Below, in pieces: positions 4,202 through 35,200 of a DNA stretch of 35,355 nucleotides. A model generated the notes under the pieces. It was not told the origin of the DNA, made no database searches, and was given only the letters and a program-made list of their open reading frames with translations. Position 1 is the first letter of the stretch. Every line of letters begins with the position of its first letter. Both the position numbers and the translations under genes were made by a program. Source of the DNA: a bacterium (GTDB taxonomy: Bacteria > Actinomycetota > Thermoleophilia > Solirubrobacterales > Solirubrobacteraceae); assembly GCA_021323635.1 (NCBI GenBank), contig JAJPKQ010000020.1:1-35355 (forward strand), written 5' to 3'.

Positions 4202-4492
4202 ATGCGAGCGGACTATGACACCAGCGCGAACGCCATCTCGATCGCGATCACCGATGCGCCGAGCGCCGAACGCGGCGACGAGGTGCATCCACGGGCCGTC
4301 GTGGCTCTCGCGGCGGGCAAGCCCGTCGAGGTCCAGCTCCTGTATCCTGACATGGGAATCTCCGAGCCACTCGCTGCCGTGGCCAAGCGCTACGAACTTG
4401 ACCGCGAAGCCCTGGAGGCTGCCGCGCGGTCGGCGCTCGCCGCCCCCAACCGGGTGGTCTCGGTCGAAGTCGCAGCTGGATCGCCAGCTTAG
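4202..4492 (+). CDS. DUF2283 family protein, putative antitoxin
   Basis: The first 55 residues match DUF2283: MRADYDTSANAISIAI, then a variable acidic loop, then a strand region with VALAAGKPVEVQLLYP. This family is small, all-beta, and often sits beside DUF4258 genes, where it is proposed to act as antitoxin. The rest (about residues 56-96) is helical, with ISEPLAAVAKRYELDREAL resembling a short helix-turn-helix or dimer helix, and could bind the operon promoter. It starts one base after the DUF4258 stop, so translation is almost surely coupled. The role is inferred. Confidence 0.75.
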   Translation: MRADYDTSANAISIAITDAPSAERGDEVHPRAVVALAAGKPVEVQLLYPDMGISEPLAAVAKRYELDREALEAAARSALAAPNRVVSVEVAAGSPA

Positions 4493-25434: not shown

Positions 25435-25496
25435 CCTTCAAGCTTTGCACCTCACACGCCACAGCAAGCGCCTGAGGCCCTACGCTTTAGGTGCGT

Positions 25497-25570
25497 GGGC
25501 GCGTAGCTCAGCTGGCCAGAGCACCTCGCTTACACCGAGGGGGTCGCCCGTTCGAGTCGGGCCGCGCCCA
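25497..25570 (+). tRNA. tRNA-Val (anticodon TAC)
   Basis: Acceptor GGGCGCG pairs with CGCGCCC. The D arm has AGCTCAGCTGG. The anticodon stem CCTCG/CGAGG with loop CTTACAC gives anticodon TAC, and the T arm has GTTCGAGTC. The discriminator is A and no CCA is encoded. It lies 61 bases before fprA and reads in the same direction, so readthrough is possible. Confidence 0.95.
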
Positions 25571-25603
25571 TCGCAACAGCCGCGCGCGCCGTTCAAGAAG
25601 AGC

Positions 25604-25642
25604 ACATGACAGACGCAACCAGCCCAACCACATGACAGACGC
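25604..25642 (+). repeat. 26-base tandem duplication of the fprA start region
   Basis: The 13-mer ACATGACAGACGC occurs at 25604-25616 and 25630-25642, and similarity continues for about ten more bases. The first copy gives a nine-codon ORF (MTDATSPTT) out of frame, whose TGA overlaps the true ATG at 25632. It may act as a short upstream coupling ORF. Confidence 0.6.
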
Positions 25643-27089
25643 CGCCAGCCCGATCCGCGTCGCGATCATCGGCTCCGGCCCCGCCGGCTTCTACGCCGCC
25701 GGGCACCTGCTCGCCGAGGGGCCCCAGACGATCGAGGTGGACATGCTCGAGCGCCTCCCCACCCCCTGGGGGCTGGTGCGCTCGGGCGTCGCCCCCGACC
25801 ACCCCAAGATCAAGTCCGTCACGCGCATCTACGAGCGCACGGCCGAACATGACCGCTTTCGCTTCTTCGGCAACATCGAGGTCGGGGTCGATGTCAGCCG
25901 GGCGGAGCTTGCCCGCCACTACCACGCGCTCGTCTATGCGACGGGCTCGCTTGCCGACAGGCCCCTGGGCATCCCCGGCGAAGAGCTGCCCGGCTCGCTG
26001 CCGGCGACTGAGCTTGTCGCCTGGTACAACGCCCACCCCGACCATCACGCGCTCGCGCCCGACCTCTCCTGCAAGCGCGCGATCGTGATCGGCAACGGCA
26101 ATGTCGCTCTCGACGTCGCCCGCATGCTCGTGCTGCCGATCTCAGAGCTTGCGCGGACCGACATCGCCGACCATGCGCTTGCCGCGCTGGAGCAGAGCGC
26201 CATCGAGGAGGTGCTCGTCGCGGGTCGCCGCGGACCCGCGCAGGCCGCCTTCACCAACCCTGAGCTGCGCGAGCTTGCCGAGATCGAGGGCGTCGAGGTC
26301 GAGGTCGACGGCCAGGAGCTCGAGGACGCCCTGGCGGTCGAGGATCCCCATGCGGACCCCACTGCGAAGCGCAACGTCGAGACCCTGCGCGAGTACGCGC
26401 AGGCGACCGCGGCACGCAGGCGCAAGCGCGCTGCGGGCGATGAGGGCGCTGCAGCGCCCCGCCGCATCGTCCTGCGCTTCCTGCTCTCGCCGCTTGCGAT
26501 CGAGGGCGGCGAGCGGGGCGTGCAGGCGGTGACGTTCGTGCGCAACAGGCTGGAGGCCGACGCGGCGGGCAGGCTGCGGGCGGTCGGCACCGGACAGCGC
26601 GAGCGCATCGAGGCGGGGCTGGTCGCGCGCGCGGTCGGCTATCGCGGCAGCCCGCTGCCGGACGTGCCATTCGATGCCGAGCGCTACGTGATCCCCAATG
26701 AGCGCGGGCGCGTGATCGATCCGGCGGGCGGCGGCACTCGCCGCGGCGAGTACGTTGTCGGCTGGATCAAGCGCGGGCCGACCGGGGTGATCGGGACAAA
26801 CAAGAAAGACGCGCACGAGACGGTCTCCGCGATCCTCGAGGATCTGCGAGCCGATCGTCTCCCCGGCCCCGAGCAGCCCTCTCCCGATCAGGCGCTCGCG
26901 CTGCTGCGCGCCCGCCAGCCCAACCTCGTCACCTACGCCGGCTGGCGTGCGATCGATCACCATGAGCGTGCGCGTGGCGCAGCGCAGGGGCGCCCGCGCA
27001 CCAAGCTCGCCCGCATCGAGGAGCTGCTCGAGGTTGCCGCCAAGGCGGGCTCCGAGGAGGAGATCAGCGCGGCGCTGCAGCGTGCCTGA
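25632..27089 (+). CDS. fprA: NADPH:ferredoxin oxidoreductase, FprA (adrenodoxin reductase) type
   Basis: The 485-residue product starts with the FAD-binding loop IIGSGPAGFYAAGHLL. It continues with LPTPWGLVRSGVAPDHPKIK, the FprA/adrenodoxin reductase signature, and the NADPH fold VIGNGNVALDVARML. Further marks are GRRGPAQAAFTNPELREL and, at the C terminus, WIKRGPTGVIGTNKKDA, also invariant in the family. It moves electrons from NADPH to ferredoxin for P450s. Length matches FprA (about 456) with a short C-terminal excess. Start ATG 25632 is the first in-frame ATG with sense N terminus; the same frame runs through the tRNA upstream. It lies between the P450 gene and the IS-split ferredoxin gene. 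Confidence 0.93.
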   Translation: MTDAASPIRVAIIGSGPAGFYAAGHLLAEGPQTIEVDMLERLPTPWGLVRSGVAPDHPKIKSVTRIYERTAEHDRFRFFGNIEVGVDVSRAELARHYHALVYATGSLADRPLGIPGEELPGSLPATELVAWYNAHPDHHALAPDLSCKRAIVIGNGNVALDVARMLVLPISELARTDIADHALAALEQSAIEEVLVAGRRGPAQAAFTNPELRELAEIEGVEVEVDGQELEDALAVEDPHADPTAKRNVETLREYAQATAARRRKRAAGDEGAAAPRRIVLRFLLSPLAIEGGERGVQAVTFVRNRLEADAAGRLRAVGTGQRERIEAGLVARAVGYRGSPLPDVPFDAERYVIPNERGRVIDPAGGGTRRGEYVVGWIKRGPTGVIGTNKKDAHETVSAILEDLRADRLPGPEQPSPDQALALLRARQPNLVTYAGWRAIDHHERARGAAQGRPRTKLARIEELLEVAAKAGSEEEISAALQRA

Positions 27090-27495: not shown

Positions 27496-28407
27496 CTATT
27501 TCGTGTGGGAAACCAACTGCCTGTCTGTGTTGCGGGTCAACTGCTCAAACTCCACCGGCGGCCTGTCGCCGCAGGCGCTGTGAAGCCTCTGGTGGTTGTA
27601 CCAATCGACCCATTCCAGCGTTGCAGGCTCGACCTGCTCCATGCTCTTCCACGGACCAAGGCGTTCGATCAGCTCCGTTTTGTATAGGCCAATTGTCTTC
27701 TCGGCCAGGGCGTTGTCGTAAGCATCTCCGATCGATCCAACCGAGTCGTCGATGCCTGCGTCAAGGAGCCGTTGGGTGAAGGCAAATGAGATGTATTGAC
27801 TGCCCGCGTCGTGGTGTTTGATCAGCTCGCCTTCGAGCACCGGCATGCCTTCGTGATCGCGAGCGAAGAGCGCCATGTCCAGCGTGTCGAGCACGAGATC
27901 GGTCTTCATCTGTCGATCTGCCTTCCATCCGACGATCCGCCTTGAGTAGGCGTCGATCGCGAAGGCCACATAACAGACGCCCGCCCAGGTGGGCACATAC
28001 GTGAAGTCGGAGACCCAAATTCGGTTCGGCTCGTGAGCTTTGAAGTTTCGCTTGACGAGGTCCTCCGGGCGCGCTGCGGCCTGCTCGGGGATCGTCGTGC
28101 GACGGCGCTTTCCTCGACGAACGCCTTCAAGACCGGCCTTCTTCATCAGCCGCTCCGTCGTGCAGCGCGCGATGTCGATGCCTTCGCGGCGCAGCTGAAG
28201 CCAGACCTTGCGGGCGCCGTAGAGGCTGCGACTCTTGGCGTGGACCCGCTGGATCTCCCGGGTGAGCATCTCGTCGCGCATGGAACGCGCCGAGGGCTCT
28301 TGCTCACGGGCCTTGGCGGCGTAGTAGGTGGAGAAAGCGATCTGGAGTGTTTTGCAGATCGGCTCGACTCCGTGCTCTTCTCGGTGCGTGTCAATCATCG
28401 CGGTCAT
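27496..28407 (-). CDS. IS3 family transposase OrfB (integrase core)
   Basis: The 303-residue product has the HTH_21 region (REEHGVEPICKTLQIAFSTY) and the rve integrase core. DFTYVPTWAG carries the first Asp, HHDAGSQYISFAF the second Asp, and DNALAEKTIGLYKTE the Glu. The usual HSDRGSQY is HHDAGSQY here, but the catalytic Asp is kept. It ends with the WYNHQRLHSACGDRPPVEFE motif seen in intact IS3 enzymes. It is expressed as an OrfAB fusion by -1 frameshift at the four-base overlap with orfA. It appears intact. Confidence 0.9.
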   Translation of the reverse strand: MTAMIDTHREEHGVEPICKTLQIAFSTYYAAKAREQEPSARSMRDEMLTREIQRVHAKSRSLYGARKVWLQLRREGIDIARCTTERLMKKAGLEGVRRGKRRRTTIPEQAAARPEDLVKRNFKAHEPNRIWVSDFTYVPTWAGVCYVAFAIDAYSRRIVGWKADRQMKTDLVLDTLDMALFARDHEGMPVLEGELIKHHDAGSQYISFAFTQRLLDAGIDDSVGSIGDAYDNALAEKTIGLYKTELIERLGPWKSMEQVEPATLEWVDWYNHQRLHSACGDRPPVEFEQLTRNTDRQLVSHTK

Positions 28408-28739
28408 CTCCTCGGTTGCGGGCCTGCCTCCCGCGCGAAGAAAGCTGAGGCGAGCTTGAGAATCTCGTTGGCCCTGCGGAGCTCCTTGTTCTCGCGTTCA
28501 AGCTCCTTTATGCGAGCTGCCTCCTCGGTGGAGATACCCGGCCGGGAGCCTTCGTCGATCTGGGCCTGGCGGATCCAGCGGCGCAGGGTCTCGTTCTTGA
28601 TCCCGAGCTTCGCCGCTAACGAAGTGATCGCGGCCCATTCGGAGCTGTGGGCCCCGCGGGCCTCTCTGGTGATGCGGATCGCGCGCTCGCGGAGCTCAGG
28701 CGAGTAGCGCTTGCTCCTGTTGCTCTTGGTATCTGGCAT
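28404..28739 (-). CDS. IS3 family transposase OrfA (DNA-binding)
   Basis: The 111-residue product has the HTH_Tnp_1 helix-turn-helix (RYSPELRERAIRITREARGA, then SLAAKLGIKNETLRRWIRQA) and a C-terminal leucine-zipper helix (KELERENKELRRANEILKLA). These are the DNA-binding and multimerisation parts of IS3 OrfA. The stop overlaps the OrfB start (ATGA). No clear A-rich slippery heptamer is seen near the overlap. Confidence 0.88.
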   Translation of the reverse strand: MPDTKSNRSKRYSPELRERAIRITREARGAHSSEWAAITSLAAKLGIKNETLRRWIRQAQIDEGSRPGISTEEAARIKELERENKELRRANEILKLASAFFAREAGPQPRR

Positions 28740-29014: not shown

Positions 29015-29638
29015 CATTTCGCCCGCCAGAGCCCCGGCTTCTTCGATGATCTGCTGCTGGTCGACTTCACTCCGGTGGAGTGTGCCCGCTCCCGCGAGAC
29101 CGTCAAGCGCGGCGGGGACTCGAGTCTCACCGTCGCGCTGACGGACGCCGCCGACTACGGCTACTGCGCAAGCCACAGCCGCCACTTCTTCGGCTTTCGC
29201 CTGCACGCCCTGTTCGCGGCCGACGGCACCCCGAGGGCTTTGGCGCTGACCCCGCCGAAGGTCGACGAGCGCGAGGTTTGCTTGAAGCTCGTCGCCCGTT
29301 GCGAACGCAGGCCCGGGCAGCTGCTGATCGTGATCGGGGACAAGGGCTTCCGCGGCAAGGGCTTCGAGGCCCAGATGGCCGCGCTCGATGCCAGGATCAT
29401 GCGTCCGCCCCGCAAGGACGAGAGCGGGCGTGGCCCGCAGCTCGCGCCCATCCGCCAGCGGATCGAGTCGATCTTCTGGACCTTCAAGGACATCCTCACG
29501 CTTGAGCGCCACGGCGCCCGCACCCTTCGCAACCTGCGCGTGCGGCTGTGTGCCCGCTTCGCCGCGCGGGCTGCCGCCGTCGCGCTCAACCACCAGCTCG
29601 GCCGCGCCAGCCGTTCGTTGGTCTGCTACACGGCGTAA
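29015..29638 (+). pseudogene. IS982-like transposase, 5'-truncated
   Basis: The frame reads HFARQSPGFFDDLLLVDFTP, then VECARSRETVKR, DAADYGYCASHSRHFFGFRL, LIVIGDKGFRGKGFEAQMAA and RQRIESIFWTFKDILTLERH, ending NHQLGRASRSLVCYTA. These are the catalytic core and C terminus of an IS982-type DDE transposase, with Asp in DFTPVE, Asp in GDKGF and Glu in RIESIFWT. The N-terminal part is absent; the frame begins where the ISL3 end stops. A GTG at 29075 could start translation, but the product would lack the N-terminal domain. Confidence 0.75.
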
Positions 29639-29652
29639 TTCCGTGGCACTAC

Positions 29653-29763
29653 TCATCTAGAGCGCCCGGGCTCGCCCCGGCGCTGGCCCCGGCCCGCTCG
29701 GCCCGCGCGCCTATCGGTGAGCTCCGAGGGGCGCGGCGCGCGATCGACGAGGCGCTCGCATGA
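29653..29763 (+). pseudogene. Possible 3' tail of a gene cut off by the IS982-like element
   Basis: The frame APGLAPALAPARS, then RGARRAIDEALA ends in a TGA that overlaps an ATG at 29760. That ATG opens a 25-codon ORF ending just before the ferredoxin ribosome-binding site. The chained layout suggests the end of a former operon member whose body was lost. Too short to identify. Confidence 0.25.
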
Positions 29764-29846
29764 GCGCGGAGGCGCCGAGGAGCGCGTCGGCAGGCGGGCT
29801 TTCGACGCACGCTGCGATCACCCCATCTCGACCATAGGAGGGATGC

Positions 29847-30053
29847 ATGAGCGATCAGCCAACCATCGATGAGCAGGCGTGTATCGCCCAGGGCGACTGC
29901 GTAGAGACCGCGTCTGCGGTCTTCGCGCTCGAGGATCGCGCCGTGGTCCTGGGAAGCGGGCCCGACGAGCTCCTGCTTGCGGCGGCCAAGGGCTGTCCGG
30001 TGCAGGCGATCACGCTCGTCGACCCGGACACCGGCGAGCAGGTCTATCCCTGA
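29847..30053 (+). CDS. 3Fe-4S-type ferredoxin, P450 redox partner
   Basis: The 68-residue product has C12, C18 and C50 (C-x5-C and a later C-P), with the position for a fourth cluster Cys occupied otherwise, as in actinobacterial [3Fe-4S] ferredoxins that serve P450s. The motifs DEQACIAQGDCVE, VFALEDRAVVL and KGCPVQAI are typical. AGGAGGG lies just before the ATG. It probably passes electrons from FprA to the P450, both in the 6.7 kb upstream of it; the IS cluster now lies between. No P450 is directly adjacent. Confidence 0.9.
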   Translation: MSDQPTIDEQACIAQGDCVETASAVFALEDRAVVLGSGPDELLLAAAKGCPVQAITLVDPDTGEQVYP

Positions 30054-30063
30054 CTCGTGGCCG

Positions 30064-30642
30064 TCACGCTCGATCACCGCTCTGGATCGGTGGTGGCGGG
30101 GGGCCGTGGCGCATCATCCCCGTCTCGCGCTCGACCGCCGCCACGCGGTCCGCGGGCACGCGAGGGCCGTCGGGCGGCGGCTGAAGCCACGGCCACTGCG
30201 CGGGCTCGGCCAGCCCGCGAACCATGTTCTCGATGCCCGCCGGCGTGGAGAGCGCCAGCATCCTCGCCGTGTCGGACTCCACGCGGAAGGTGTGCGGCGT
30301 TCCTCCGGGCGCGAACACCACGGCCCCCGGCCCGCAACGGCGCCCGCGCGTGGCCACCCAGGAGGGAGGATCTGCGGAGTCCTCAGTGAGCTCCAGCTCA
30401 ACGAGCCAGGCAGTCAGCTCGCCTTCGAGGACGTAGAAGGTCTCGTCCTGGGGATGGGAGTGGAGCGGCGGCGCGGCGCCGTGGGGAAGAACTCCCTCCC
30501 ACAGGCCGAGCCGTCCACCGGTTTGCCACCCGTCTAGCTTCATCCGCGCCAGCGTGCCCAGGAACCACAGGTTCTCGCCGCCGCTGACCACGCAAGGCTC
30601 GGCCGTATCGGCGCACGCTGCGATCGACGTCTGTGCGCTCAT
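30064..30642 (-). CDS. Cupin 3 of the coupled cupin operon (quercetinase-like)
   Basis: This 192-residue protein has cupin motif 1 in PPLHSHPQDETFYVLEGELT (about 58-77) with His, His and Glu, and motif 2 in GAVVFAPGGTPHTFRVESDT with the fourth His. An extra C-terminal segment (about 130-192) is typical of quercetin-2,3-dioxygenase-like actinobacterial cupins. It is the last of three cupin genes and starts within an ATGA shared with cupin 2. Its end is 10 bases from the convergent ferredoxin stop. Substrate unknown. Confidence 0.85.
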   Translation of the reverse strand: MSAQTSIAACADTAEPCVVSGGENLWFLGTLARMKLDGWQTGGRLGLWEGVLPHGAAPPLHSHPQDETFYVLEGELTAWLVELELTEDSADPPSWVATRGRRCGPGAVVFAPGGTPHTFRVESDTARMLALSTPAGIENMVRGLAEPAQWPWLQPPPDGPRVPADRVAAVERETGMMRHGPPPPPIQSGDRA

Positions 30643-31019
30643 GGGCGCACCCCGCCGGAGAACTGCTCGGGGCGCTCGTATGCGCCCGCGGGCGCGCAGC
30701 CGATCGCCAACACCCTCGCTCCTTCGGCTCCTGGCCAGAACATGCGCGTGGCCGCGGCGTCGATGCGGAGCATCGAGCCAGGATCGATCGGCACCCGATC
30801 GCCGTCGATCTCGAACTCGCCCGAGCCGCGCAGGAGAACGTAGACCTCCTCCTGGCCGTCGGCGGCATGGTTGTGCTCGGGGTAGTCGCGAAAGCCGGCG
30901 GGGAGGTCGAGCACCTGGAGCCCGAAGGACTCCACCCCCAGCTCAGCAGCGGCGAGCCTGACGGCGCCGTGATGCAACGCGGCCATGTCGCCGATCGCCA
31001 TGATCGTGTAGCGGCTCAT
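30639..31019 (-). CDS. Cupin 2 of the coupled cupin operon
   Basis: The 126-residue product is a single small cupin. It has AGFRDYPEHNHAADGQEEVY (about 41-60) with the His-x-His...Glu set, then VLLRGSGEFEIDGDRVPIDP and SMLRIDAAATRMFWPG. Motif 2 lacks a clear fourth His, so metal binding may differ. It starts in an ATGA overlap with cupin 1 and ends in one with cupin 3. The frame is open upstream, but MSRYTIMAIGDM is the natural start. Confidence 0.8.
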   Translation of the reverse strand: MSRYTIMAIGDMAALHHGAVRLAAAELGVESFGLQVLDLPAGFRDYPEHNHAADGQEEVYVLLRGSGEFEIDGDRVPIDPGSMLRIDAAATRMFWPGAEGARVLAIGCAPAGAYERPEQFSGGVRP

Positions 31020-31384
31020 CGCGCCGCTGCCTGCAGGAGCGTCGCGCTGCCGCTGAAGTCGACCGTCACGCACGGCTCCTCGCCCAGCACCCACGCGTCG
31101 TGGCCCGGGCCGATCACGAACGCGTCGCCCGGCTTCAGCTCGAACTCGCTGCCGTCGGCCATCCGAACCATCTGACGCCCGGAGACGACGTAGCCGGTGT
31201 GGGCCGCCTCGCACAACTCGGTCCCCGCTTGCGGCTTGACGTGCTCCGACCAGCGCCAGCCAGGCTGGAAGGTCGCACGGCCGACCGTGAGCCCACCGAG
31301 TCGTACGAGATCGATCCGGCCGTGCCCGGCGGTCGCCCGGCTGTCCTCCGGATCCTCGAGGCTCTTGACGATCACGCTGCTCAT
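31016..31384 (-). CDS. Cupin 1 of the coupled cupin operon
   Basis: The 122-residue product begins with a regulator-like strand region and has cupin residues in GWRWSEHVKPQAGTELCEAA and HTGYVVSGRQMVRMADGSEF. The second motif is LKPGDAFVIGPGHDAWVLGE with its His. AGGAG lies eight bases before the ATG. It is first in the three-cupin operon, 130 bases downstream of the LuxR pseudogene, and its start shares bases with the stop of a 21-codon ORF that has its own strong ribosome-binding site. Substrate unknown. Confidence 0.8.
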   Translation of the reverse strand: MSSVIVKSLEDPEDSRATAGHGRIDLVRLGGLTVGRATFQPGWRWSEHVKPQAGTELCEAAHTGYVVSGRQMVRMADGSEFELKPGDAFVIGPGHDAWVLGEEPCVTVDFSGSATLLQAAAR

Positions 31385-31446
31385 CTCGAGTCTCCTGCGT
31401 GCTCGTCGAAACCGGGCCATCCGGCCCCCTGCCGTGTACTGATCAT
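31381..31446 (-). CDS. 21-codon leader ORF before the cupin operon
   Basis: AAGGAGG stands seven bases before an ATG (31446), and the ORF (MISTRQGAGWPGFDEHAGDS then Arg) stops in an ATGA that overlaps the cupin 1 start. The layout suggests translational coupling or a leader peptide. The peptide has no Trp, Cys or His run of the attenuator kind. It could be chance, but the match of ribosome-binding site and overlap is unusual. Confidence 0.4.
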   Translation of the reverse strand: MISTRQGAGWPGFDEHAGDSR

Positions 31447-31514
31447 CTGCGCCTCCTTGTCGTGAATGGCAGCAGGGTAGCGATGCGGCGTTCGGCTCAC
31501 ATCGGTCGAGTTGC

Positions 31515-34130
31515 CTATCTTTGCAGGGCGGCTTGCCCATCTTGGGCGAGCAGCGTGCGTGCCCTCGCGCGCTCGACTGCCGCCGTGCGGTTGGGGGCAT
31601 CGAGCTTTCGCAGGATCGCCGAGACGTGATGACCGACCGTGCGCTCGGAGAGATGGAGCGCCTGCGCGATGGTGGCGTTGGTGGCCCCGGTGGCGAGCGC
31701 TTCCAGCACCTCCTGCTCGCGCCGCGTGAGCCCCGCCGCATTCTCGAGCGTCGAGCGCCGCGGGCCCCGCGAGGCGCGCTCACCGCGCGCCGCCCGCTCG
31801 CGGGTGAAGGCTCTCGCTGCCGCACGGGCGCCGAGCCCGTGCAACGACGCGAGCGCGTCGCGAGCGGCACGGTCGTCGCCGGCCAGCGACGCGAGCGCGG
31901 CCTCGTACGGCGCGTCCACGGCTCGCCAGGCCGCGATCGCGCCCCGCCAGTCGCCGGCGAGCTCGAGCAGCACGGGCTCGGGTGCACCGGCCGGAGGGTC
32001 GATCGGGCTGCCCAGTCGCGAGGCCCAGAGCGCCAGCTCGCCGCCCCAGCGCGCGAAACGCGCGACCGCCGGCGTCTCCCGCGCGGCTCGCAGCAGATCC
32101 AGCGCCGCCGCGCGGTCGCCGCGCAGCCATGCCGCCTCGACGAGCGCCAGGCGGACCATCCCGTGCCTCGAGCCCTCTGCGGCGACCAGCTCGACGATTC
32201 CCTCCCACGCCTGCTGCAGCAGCTCGGCAGCATCCGGCTCGCCGCGCCTTGCCTTGATCAGAGCCTCGAGCGCGCACGCGACATGGAACTCTCCCTGCCA
32301 CCAGCGCTCCCGGCGCGCCGCGATCGCCATGGCCTCCTCCCAGCGTCCCCTGTCCAGCAAGCTGCGCGCGCGGAAGATGCGGATCGCCATGATCGGAAGC
32401 GCCGAGACGTGCAGCTCCTCCAGCAGCGGCAGCGCCTCCGCTGCGACCTCGTCCACGCGCTCGTGTGCGCGCAGCGCGACCCCAACGTTCGTCAGGTTGA
32501 CGTACGCGCGGACCATGCGGATCGTGAACCCGCTCCGCTTTGTCGCCGCAAGCGCGTCGTCCAGGGCCCGGAGCGCCGCGCGCTCGCCGAGGTGGCCCCG
32601 AGCGAGGCCGGTGCTGATTGCCACGTCGATGCAGGTCTCCTCCAGTCCGGCGTCCTCCGCCAGCGCCAGGGCGCGTGGGGCCATCTGGAGCGCCGAGGCC
32701 GGATCGAAGGCCGTTGCCTCGATGCGCAGCAAGGTGGCGGACGCCCAGGCCAGCGATGCCATGTCGCCGGTCTCTTCGAACGCGGTGATCGCCTGCACGG
32801 CCGCCGCCCGTGCCTCCACTACGCGCTCCAGCGACCACAGCGCGTACGAGAGCGCCACGAGCGCGCGCCCGTGCCTGCGCTGATCGCTCAGCCGCTCCGC
32901 GAGCGCGACGGCGCGTTCTGCGGCATCCACTGCGTCCTCAAGACGTGGATTGGCGAAGTTCGACGCGCGCGAGCATTGCACGAGCAGCTCGAATCGATCA
33001 GGACCAGCCAGGTCGCCGCCGAGTCGCAGGGCGCGCTCCGCCTGCAGATAGGTCTCGCGCACCGCGCCGACGCGCTCGGCCTCGGCCGCCGCGAGCATTG
33101 CGTGCCGCGTGGCCTCCTTCGTGAGGCCGCCAAGCTCGGCGTGGTGCGCGAGTTGCGCGTGGTCCTCCGCATGTCCCCCTGCGACGAGCGCTGCGAATGC
33201 CCGCGCGTGAAGCGTGGTTCGGCGCTGCGGGGAGATCGAGCTCTCGATCGCCTCACGGATGAGCTCGTGCCTGAACGCCAGAGCGCTCCCGTCGGCGACC
33301 AGCACTCCACGCGCGCGCGCCTCCTCGAGTGCCACCGGGTGCGTGGAGATGACCGCCTCGATCAGTGCCGGATCGAGACGGGGGCCCATGACCGCCGCTG
33401 CGTCGAGCGCTTCCCGCGCCGCCATGCCGAGCCTTCCTACGCGCGCGAGCGCCGCGTCCCGGACGGAGGCCGGCAGTCGGCCATGGGCTGCGATCGACTC
33501 GACGACCAGGAAGGGATTGCCACCGGTCGCGCGCATCAGATCCGCCGCGTCGAGCCCCGCCGGGCGCGTGAGATCGGCCACCGCCGCCTCCGACAATGGG
33601 CGAAGCGCGATGCGAGTGACAGCGGGCGCGGTTGCAAGGTCGCCCAGCAGCAGCCGGAGCTCCGGCTGCGCCTCGACCTAGTCATCCCGGTACGTCACGG
33701 CCATCACCACACCTAGCTCCTCGATCCGCCGCGCCAGGACGCGCGTCAGCTCCAGCGTCAGCGGATCGGCCCAATGAACGTCCTCGATCACCGCCAGCGC
33801 CGGGGCTCGCCGGCCAAGGGCGTCGAGCAGCGCGCGAGCGACCGTCAGGCGGTCTTCGCTTCCCAGCGCGAGCAGGTCTCCGCCGTCTGCGGCTTCGAAG
33901 AGCTCGCGCAGCGGGCCCAAGGGAGCAGGCACCGACAGCGGCTCGCATGCGCCCGCGAAGAACGCGACCGCATCGCCGGCGACGCGATCTCGAAGCTCGC
34001 GCACGAGCGATGTCTTGCCGATGCCCGCCTCTCCAGCGACGAGCGTCAGCGCGCCTCGGCCGTCACGGGCCGCATCTACGATCTCAACCAGCCGGGCAAG
34101 CTCATCCTCACGCTCGAGCAGCCGCTCCAC
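31515..34130 (-). pseudogene. LuxR family ATPase regulator (LAL type), interrupted by an in-frame TAG
   Basis: Read through, this is an 871-codon LAL-type regulator of normal size. It has an N-terminal AAA/NB-ARC-like ATPase (Walker A GEAGIGKT at 33-40; Walker B AVIEDVHWAD at about 117-126) and a long TPR-like helical middle. The C-terminal LuxR helix-turn-helix reads LTRREQEVLEALATGATNAT, then IAQALHLSERTVGHHVSAIL. Codon 151 is TAG, just after VTYRDD; the frame is otherwise continuous (VEAQPELRLLL follows), so a single base change, most simply GAG to TAG, broke it. The start chosen is GTG 34130, with TACAAT eight bases upstream and no Shine-Dalgarno, so it may be leaderless. Downstream are the cupins; upstream is an IS3 element. 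Confidence 0.8.
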
Positions 34131-34213
34131 AAGCGCCGATTGTAACGGGGGGCAGAGGAGCGCCGCGCGGCGCCGGAGCCCGTCAAGCCCGGTGAGACGG
34201 TTCGCGTCCGAAA

Positions 34214-35200
34214 CTAGTGAGCGGCGGCGGCCTCCTTTGGCTTGTTGATCCACGCGGCGGTCGGCAACTTGGGCGGGACCGGCTGCTTGCGGACGAACCG
34301 CTCGGGATGGGCGGCGTAGGCGGCCTCGAGCACGGCGGCCCGCGCCGCGTGGAGCTGCTTGCCGTGGCCGTGGTGGAAAGCGGCAGGGGTCATCAGGCCG
34401 ATCCCGGAATGGCGGTGCTCGTGGTTGTGCCAGCCGAGGAACGCCCTGCAGTGCGCCCGGGCGTGCTCGATCGAGTCGAAGTGCTCCCGGAACTCCGGCC
34501 TGTACTTCAGCGTCTTGAACTGCGCCTCGGAGTGGGGGCTATCGACCGGCGTGCCGACATCGCCCATCGAGGGTGCCAAGCCGGCGTCCTTGACCTTCTG
34601 GCTGAAGACCCAAGATCCGAACTGCACGCCCTGGTCGCTGTGAATTATCGCCTGCCGTGAAGGACTCCGCTGCGCCAGGGCCATGCCGAGCGCGTTGGTC
34701 GCCAGCAGCGCCGTCTGGGAGCTGTCGATCGACCAGCCGACGACCATCCTCGAGAAGGCGTCCAGGACGGCGCAGCAGTAGAGCTTGCCCTCTCTCGCGG
34801 GGTGCTCCGTTATATCGGTCATCCATAGCCGATCTGGCTCCTGCGCTCCGAAGCGCCTGCGCACCAGGTCAAGCGTGTTGCCTTTCGAGAGCCTTGCGGT
34901 GCGTGGCGGGCGCCTGTTGGGCAGGCCCTTCAGTCCTAATCGGCGCATCAGCAGCTCGATCTGGTTGTGGCCGACGTGGATGCCTCTTCCCAGGCGCAGC
35001 TCCGCTGTCACGCGCATTGCGCCGTAGGTTCCGCCGGAGTCCTTGTGAACCTGCGCGATCTCGCCGGCGAGCCAGGTGTGCCTGAGTGTCTTCGCCGACG
35101 GCGGCCTGCCTCTCCAGGCGTAGTAGCCGGAGACCGAGACTCCGAGCATCAAACAGGCCCGCTGGACGTCGAAGCCCTGCCCGGTCAGGGAGGCGATCAC
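34214..35200 (-). CDS. IS3 family transposase OrfB (second element)
   Basis: The 328-residue product has an N-terminal HTH part (GFDVQRACLMLGVSVSGYYA) and the integrase core. DRLWMTDITEHPAREGKLY carries the first Asp, QAIIHSDQGVQFGSWVFS the second Asp, and DSPHSEAQFKTLKYRPEF the Glu. The usual DN before the E segment is DS here. The C terminus has WHNHEHRHSGIGLMTPAAFHHG. The GTG start at 35200 overlaps the OrfA stop in the -1 frame, so expression is by frameshift. It appears intact. Confidence 0.9.
   Translation of the reverse strand: MIASLTGQGFDVQRACLMLGVSVSGYYAWRGRPPSAKTLRHTWLAGEIAQVHKDSGGTYGAMRVTAELRLGRGIHVGHNQIELLMRRLGLKGLPNRRPPRTARLSKGNTLDLVRRRFGAQEPDRLWMTDITEHPAREGKLYCCAVLDAFSRMVVGWSIDSSQTALLATNALGMALAQRSPSRQAIIHSDQGVQFGSWVFSQKVKDAGLAPSMGDVGTPVDSPHSEAQFKTLKYRPEFREHFDSIEHARAHCRAFLGWHNHEHRHSGIGLMTPAAFHHGHGKQLHAARAAVLEAAYAAHPERFVRKQPVPPKLPTAAWINKPKEAAAAH

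Follow-up and report, generated by a model that had tools for sequence, protein, structure and literature searches.

The question raised by this locus is whether three different cupin genes, standing behind an interrupted regulator gene in a segment with insertion sequences (IS) on both sides, belong together as a functional set. The window, by which we mean the whole analysed stretch of 35,355 nucleotides, is contig JAJPKQ010000020.1 (C40 among our handles, in which G, C and L stand for genomes, contigs and loci) of a draft genome of 2.6 Mb in 46 contigs from a soil bacterium of the Solirubrobacteraceae. On its minus strand a gene for a LAL-type regulator is followed by a 21-codon open reading frame (ORF) and the genes of cupins 1, 2 and 3 (Table 1). 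A preliminary description, made from the sequence alone, presented the three cupins and the leader ORF as one coupled set under a broken LuxR-type gene. Its gene layout agrees with the coordinates: cupin 1 is joined to cupin 2 and cupin 2 to cupin 3 by ATGA overlaps (31016-31019 and 30639-30642, respectively), and the leader ORF has its own AAGGAGG and a further ATGA overlap with cupin 1. The distance of 130 bases given from the regulator is right for cupin 1, whereas the leader ORF begins 68 bases after the LAL stop codon.

Comparison with relatives showed that the conserved unit is smaller than the cupin 1-2-3 set described earlier and consists of the regulator, cupin 2 and cupin 3. An orthologous LAL gene lies directly upstream of cupin 2-cupin 3 at eight other loci of Thermoleophilia type (G180, G182, G134, G097, G052, G165, G106 and L101). 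The cupin pair occurs without an adjacent orthologous LAL gene at five more (G188, G008, G420 (L102), G419 (L107) and G377 (L099)); in G419 there is only a distant LAL gene, 1.2 kb off the pair. At every one of these loci cupin 2 precedes cupin 3 on the same strand, the cupin 2 of L099 being only a 38 % relative. The LAL-cupin 2-cupin 3 order, together with the control site described below, spans three families of the order, and the cupin 2-cupin 3 pair is also present in one family outside it. An ordered set does exist outside the strain, though cupin 1 is usually unlinked from it. With the regulator, cupins 2 and 3 and a common, near-unique DNA control site all retained in relatives, the LAL-cupin set is a real, portable module and not a one-off arrangement.

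The two core cupins are distributed differently. Almost every related genome has a relative of cupin 2, of varying closeness, and in most of them cupin 3 is missing. Close relatives of cupin 3 are rare: they were present in 19 of 201 genomes of the order (E 1e-20) and in 16 of 399 genomes of the class (E 1e-40), and at the latter threshold none besides the source genome was detected among 276 genomes sampled across the phylum. Those that carry a name come almost all from Solirubrobacterales and other Thermoleophilia metagenome-assembled genomes. On inspection the ORFs flanking the module appear to differ from locus to locus, so the module seems to stand alone.

What is new here is a conserved putative operator at the junction between the regulator and the cupin genes, first spotted by eye on the aligned junctions and then tested. 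It comprises two CAAGATRGGC half-sites with a period of 22, 7 bases, CCGATGY, 19-20 bases, a -10-like hexamer and an AGGAGG-type site, and it was found in all nine loci with an orthologous LAL gene (the window included) and in G145. CCGATGY reads CCCATGT at one locus, and in place of the TACCCT of the window the hexamer reads TACGTT, TACCGT, GACGCT and similar in the others. The CCGATGT element is a possible inverted third half-site or a possible -35 region. In an alignment anchored on the half-sites at least nine of the ten loci had the same base in 20 of the 75 junction columns, and 5000 offset shuffles gave at most 2 such columns. The half-site copies stand in different reading frames at different loci (QDR in L075, PR-stop in L082), and some lie outside LAL coding sequence, namely those of L077, where no LAL coding was seen, and the second one of L079 and of L082; the conservation therefore acts on the DNA and not on the protein.

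The rarity of this element was established by pattern search. In the source genome the junction is the only site with fewer than 3 mismatches, and a single other match, with 3 mismatches, was found. The 399 genomes of the class contain five sites with at most 1 mismatch, a limit that misses members with diverged half-sites such as L079 (5 mismatches), and four of the five are these cupin promoters (G000, G165, G182 and G145). The fifth, L140 (G265:C29, 6510-6541), matches the tandem half-site pattern exactly and has no LAL or cupin gene of this set in the stretch examined; it was taken as chance or another use. From these site counts the simplest reading is a regulator with one strong putative site per genome, located at its own neighbour, and the junction element is most likely the operator of such a one-target LAL regulator.

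That the repeat is instead an attenuator or the site of some other regulator, with the LAL gene adjacent by chance, we hold to be distinctly unlikely. The first half-site copy does lie inside the coding end of the LAL gene, as such an explanation would allow, and the LALs of other lineages bind different sites: MalT recognizes the box GGA[TG]GA, and SCO6993 short palindromes from which no consensus is derivable (PMC9628970). However, the element is present at all nine LAL loci and absent upstream of cupin 2 at the five where the orthologous LAL is missing (L074, L078, L102, L107 and L099), and the fixed spacings of 7 and 19-20 nt to the -10-like hexamer agree with an activator site. Two distant LAL genes, L141 (43 % identity) and L143 (34 %), also have weaker sites beside them in which the spacing is identical or almost so. 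At L141 (G419:C24, 26846-26877) the distant LAL gene diverges from a gene for an SCO4226-like nickel-responsive protein, and the half-sites, CCGATGT and the -10 spacing lie between them.

The regulator of the window shows both features of the LAL class in profile searches, its N-terminal part matching AAA_16 at 4.7e-22 and its C-terminal part the GerE/LuxR helix-turn-helix (HTH) at 8.8e-18; the intact orthologue L095 matches AAA_16 at 2.3e-19. The architecture, with an N-terminal AAA_16/P-loop, a C-terminal GerE HTH and about 870 aa, is that of MalT-type LAL regulators. The differences lie in the proposed tandem CAAGATRGGC site, in the proposed targets, which here are the neighbouring cupins, and in the nonsense codon of the window copy. 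A single TAG (33678-33680, codon 151) splits an otherwise continuous frame, so that the window has no one intact frame of about 870 aa, a result that concerns intactness and not ancestry. Seven intact orthologues, 57-70 % identical to the two LAL parts of the window, carry Glu at this codon within the motif R(D/S)DE. Provided the TAG base is correct, the gene is a broken LAL, as had been noticed earlier. Judged from its frame, it would yield a 150-residue ATPase fragment and leave the HTH part without a start, and normal control of the cupin operon has presumably been lost in the source strain. The -10-like hexamer before the LAL start is GTTACAAT in the window; L075, L083, L080 and L081 have GTTACGAT or GTTAGGAT in the corresponding position. 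The LAL orthologues form a sharp group (1074-1524 bits, with the next match at 621), and each one with its 3' side well inside a contig precedes these cupins; those of G145 and G397 stop at contig edges.

Cupin 3 resembles flavonol-cleaving enzymes, being quercetinase-like in sequence, metal-binding motif and predicted fold. Its profile match is to Cupin_2 (3e-12), and its sequence matches in the PDB are quercetinases (2h0v at 9e-10, QueD at 5e-3). Motif 1, G(X)5HXH(X)3-4E(X)6G, is complete, with H61, H63, E67 and G74 invariant in 15 sequences and G55 conserved in at least 90 %. Motif 2, G(X)5PXG(X)2H(X)3N, is represented by G106, P112, G114 and H117, with V121 in place of the final N, and the four metal ligands, including His117, are invariant across the same 15 sequences. 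For the structure model (pLDDT 88) the best Foldseek match was 5flh (1.5e-12), structure ranks 1-9 were all quercetinases with Z scores of 15.6-18.5, and the next family scored 13.3. Superposition on QueD gave Z 18.5 and 2.6-2.7 A over 156-157 residues, so that the fold agrees over the whole chain. By sequence and fold cupin 3 is likened to the monocupin quercetinases QueD (Streptomyces, Ni), whose size it also shares, and YxaG/QdoI (Bacillus). It differs from them in an identity of about 20 %, in the N to V change that ends motif 2 and in having a second cupin as its partner behind a LAL gene.

Cupin 2 also matches Cupin_2 (8e-7). Its H49, H51, E57 and E58 as well as Arg92 are invariant, and it has no motif-2 His, the fourth metal ligand; the changed second motif reported in one of the cupins is therefore real and belongs to cupin 2. 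The cupin 2 model is of moderate confidence (pLDDT 72), and in the fold search it resembles small cupins of the BF4112/TcmJ/KdgF type, from which it is set apart by the missing motif-2 His and the invariant Arg92. The loss of this His with HxH and Glu retained, the nickel enzyme that is the nearest structure to cupin 3, and the SCO4226-like gene beside another LAL with the same operator geometry could all mean that the cupins have no enzymatic role and instead bind small molecules or handle metals (e.g. nickel), acting as sensors or buffers with the LAL. We consider this unlikely, because cupin 3 has a full catalytic motif 1 and an invariant motif-2 His, and its likeness to quercetinases extends over almost the entire chain.

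The explanation that we favour, and regard as fairly probable, is a locally controlled regulator-plus-enzyme module composed of a dedicated LAL switch and cupin enzymes, with the regulator broken in the source strain. The LAL, an AAA+ ATPase that carries a LuxR HTH and responds to a signal, would bind the tandem operator at the 3' end of its own gene and activate the cupin operon that follows. This operon would provide a quercetinase-like metal-dependent cupin oxygenase (cupin 3) and a partner or helper cupin whose metal site is incomplete (cupin 2), to which the lineage of the window would add a third product, cupin 1. The likely task of the module would be to open by oxidation, or to detoxify, a soil compound of aromatic or enolic type that the LAL senses. 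The earlier suggestion of a module for a small aromatic or keto compound fits cupin 3, whose nearest solved structures are quercetinases.

Several points weigh against this explanation. The column test is biased towards the anchored half-sites and the motif had been chosen by eye beforehand, only CCGATG being unanchored. Some cupin 2-3 pairs lack the orthologous LAL, and this regulator is therefore dispensable for the enzymes. The TAG may be an assembly error in a draft of 46 contigs. The low identity of cupin 3 to QueD speaks for the fold and the metal site and not for the substrate, and since the surrounding genes are not conserved, no pathway partner backs the guess at a substrate.

A broader proposal can be offered only tentatively. 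The loci may represent a kind of LAL module in Thermoleophilia that has not been described before and has a single target; in it a rigid operator (half-site, 12, half-site, 7, CCGATGY, 19-20, -10) would be read by a LAL oligomer and would control a two-part cupin oxygenase made of a quercetinase-like catalytic cupin and a metal-poor partner. The operator geometry would then extend to other LAL genes and predict their targets.

Cupin 1 is an accessory to the conserved unit. Its profile match is borderline (Cupin_3, 24.4 bits against a cut-off of 23.5), its sequence gave no match in the PDB, and it is absent from the LAL-cupin 2-cupin 3 and cupin 2-3 loci of relatives. Only G145, from another genus, has cupin 1 (67 %) ahead of cupin 3 (77 %), and since it shares the three-cupin order, this order is not unique to the window. 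In G145 (L077 about 4288-4460, G145:C96) cupin 2 is internally deleted between an intact cupin 1 and an intact cupin 3, the remnant being its first 23 residues, MDGYEIKRTDETEAIFHGSFKRA, fused to the C-terminal end. The three-cupin form is thus a rarer variant, decayed in cupin 2 in G145; in the window all three frames are open with the conserved residues kept. The LAL orthologue of G145 ends about 280 bases before its contig runs out, and cupin 1 starts about 270 bases into the cupin contig; the two contigs do not overlap at their ends, so adjacency of LAL and cupins in this genome is unproven. The 21-codon ORF gave no Pfam match, and G145, the only other cupin 1 locus, has an in-frame GTG extension of cupin 1 at its place. 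A conserved leader peptide was therefore rejected, and the leader ORF falls out of the set.

Table 1 Features of the regulator-cupin locus and its surroundings in the window
Feature	Position	Strand	Remarks
IS3-type transposase	34214-35200	-	upstream of the LAL gene; profile search
-10-like hexamer TACAAT	34139-34144	-	putative; 8 nt 5' of the LAL GTG
LAL-type regulator gene (AAA_16 + LuxR HTH)	31515-34130	-	start GTG at 34130; open in seven orthologues
Tandem half-sites CAAGATGGGC-N12-AAAGATAGGC	31513-31544	-	period 22; proposed LAL operator, overlapping the LAL 3' end
CCGATGT	31499-31505	-	exactly 7 nt past the second half-site
-10-like hexamer TACCCT	31474-31479	-	19 nt past CCGATGT; putative promoter
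AAGGAGG	31452-31458	-	Shine-Dalgarno sequence of the 21-codon ORF
21-codon leader ORF MISTRQGAGWPGFDEHAGDSR	31381-31446	-	ATGA overlap with the cupin 1 start; not conserved
Cupin 1	31016-31384	-	122 aa; accessory member
Cupin 2	30639-31019	-	126 aa; core member; HxH and Glu kept, no motif-2 His
Cupin 3	30064-30642	-	quercetinase-like core member of 192 aa; motifs G(X)5HXH(X)3E(X)6G and G(X)5PXG(X)2H
Single-cluster ferredoxin (Fer4_13)	29847-30053	+	convergent neighbour, outside the module
DDE_Tnp_1 transposase remnant	29075-29638	+	between the left IS3-type element and the ferredoxin; profile search
IS3-type transposase ORFs	27496-28739	-	other side of the module; profile search

Transposase genes or remnants do lie on both sides of the module, as described at the outset, so that the segment is IS-bounded in the geographical sense, but the two IS3-type elements differ. 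No DNA match between the left and the right element is longer than 17 nt, and their proteins are 37-43 % alike, so they are neither matching ends nor evidence of a composite transposon, which was rejected since they are not copies of the same IS. A search for IS terminal repeats gave nothing convincing, and among plasmid-borne relatives only distant cupins of less than 60 % identity were found. It could still be argued that IS activity in the source strain built an ordinary accessory cluster without functional unity, given the IS genes, the broken regulator, the unconserved leader ORF and a cupin 1 that is mostly unlinked. This appears very unlikely and, for LAL-cupin 2-cupin 3, is largely refuted already, as their order and the operator are conserved over three families and the cupin 2-3 pair beyond the order. 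Moreover, the cupin 1-2-3 order recurs in G145 with the operator, and the cupins of the window are undamaged.

What suggests mobility is the patchy distribution of the module and a LAL tree that does not follow families, and not the IS elements. In this tree G106 (family f2) stands among f1 members and G165 (f1) among f2 and f3 members. The cupin 3 and the LAL of the window have their closest relatives in genus g37, which belongs to the same family, and not in the genus of the source strain itself. The module has probably moved horizontally, with paralogy and loss as the alternatives. Cupin 3 is also re-paired with other LuxR-type regulators: at L103 4759-6513 (= L084; G020:C77) a quercetinase-like cupin 3 stands immediately after a LuxR-type regulator gene of another kind, in which Pfam finds a GerE but no AAA domain, and a second cupin and another LuxR-type gene lie nearby on the other strand.

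The convergent ferredoxin gene is present as described but was dropped as a part of the module: it had no match in the cupin loci of relatives, and no cupin was found near the ferredoxin relatives. On the plus strand it is preceded by a cytochrome P450 gene (23105-24637) and a ferredoxin-reductase-like gene (25491-27089). The three may be one redox chain split by the IS3 element and the DDE transposase remnant; linkage of the ferredoxin to P450 or FprA was not found in the relatives' loci examined.

No paper describing the LAL-cupin set was found in the open-access literature. In logic alone it resembles the ECF41 sigma factor/COE modules (PMC3426412), in which the only target detected for the regulator is a small enzyme gene next to it, preceded by a conserved promoter motif; the regulator there is an ECF sigma factor and not a LAL, the enzymes are others, and no relationship is claimed.

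Actinobacteria have many LAL regulators, a class described as little studied (PMC3282765), and only for a few is a binding site known. A near-single-copy site of fixed geometry beside a LAL orthologue group provides a directly testable operator and target, and a route to the targets of related LALs. The pairing of a catalytic with a metal-poor cupin in turn poses a defined enzyme question.

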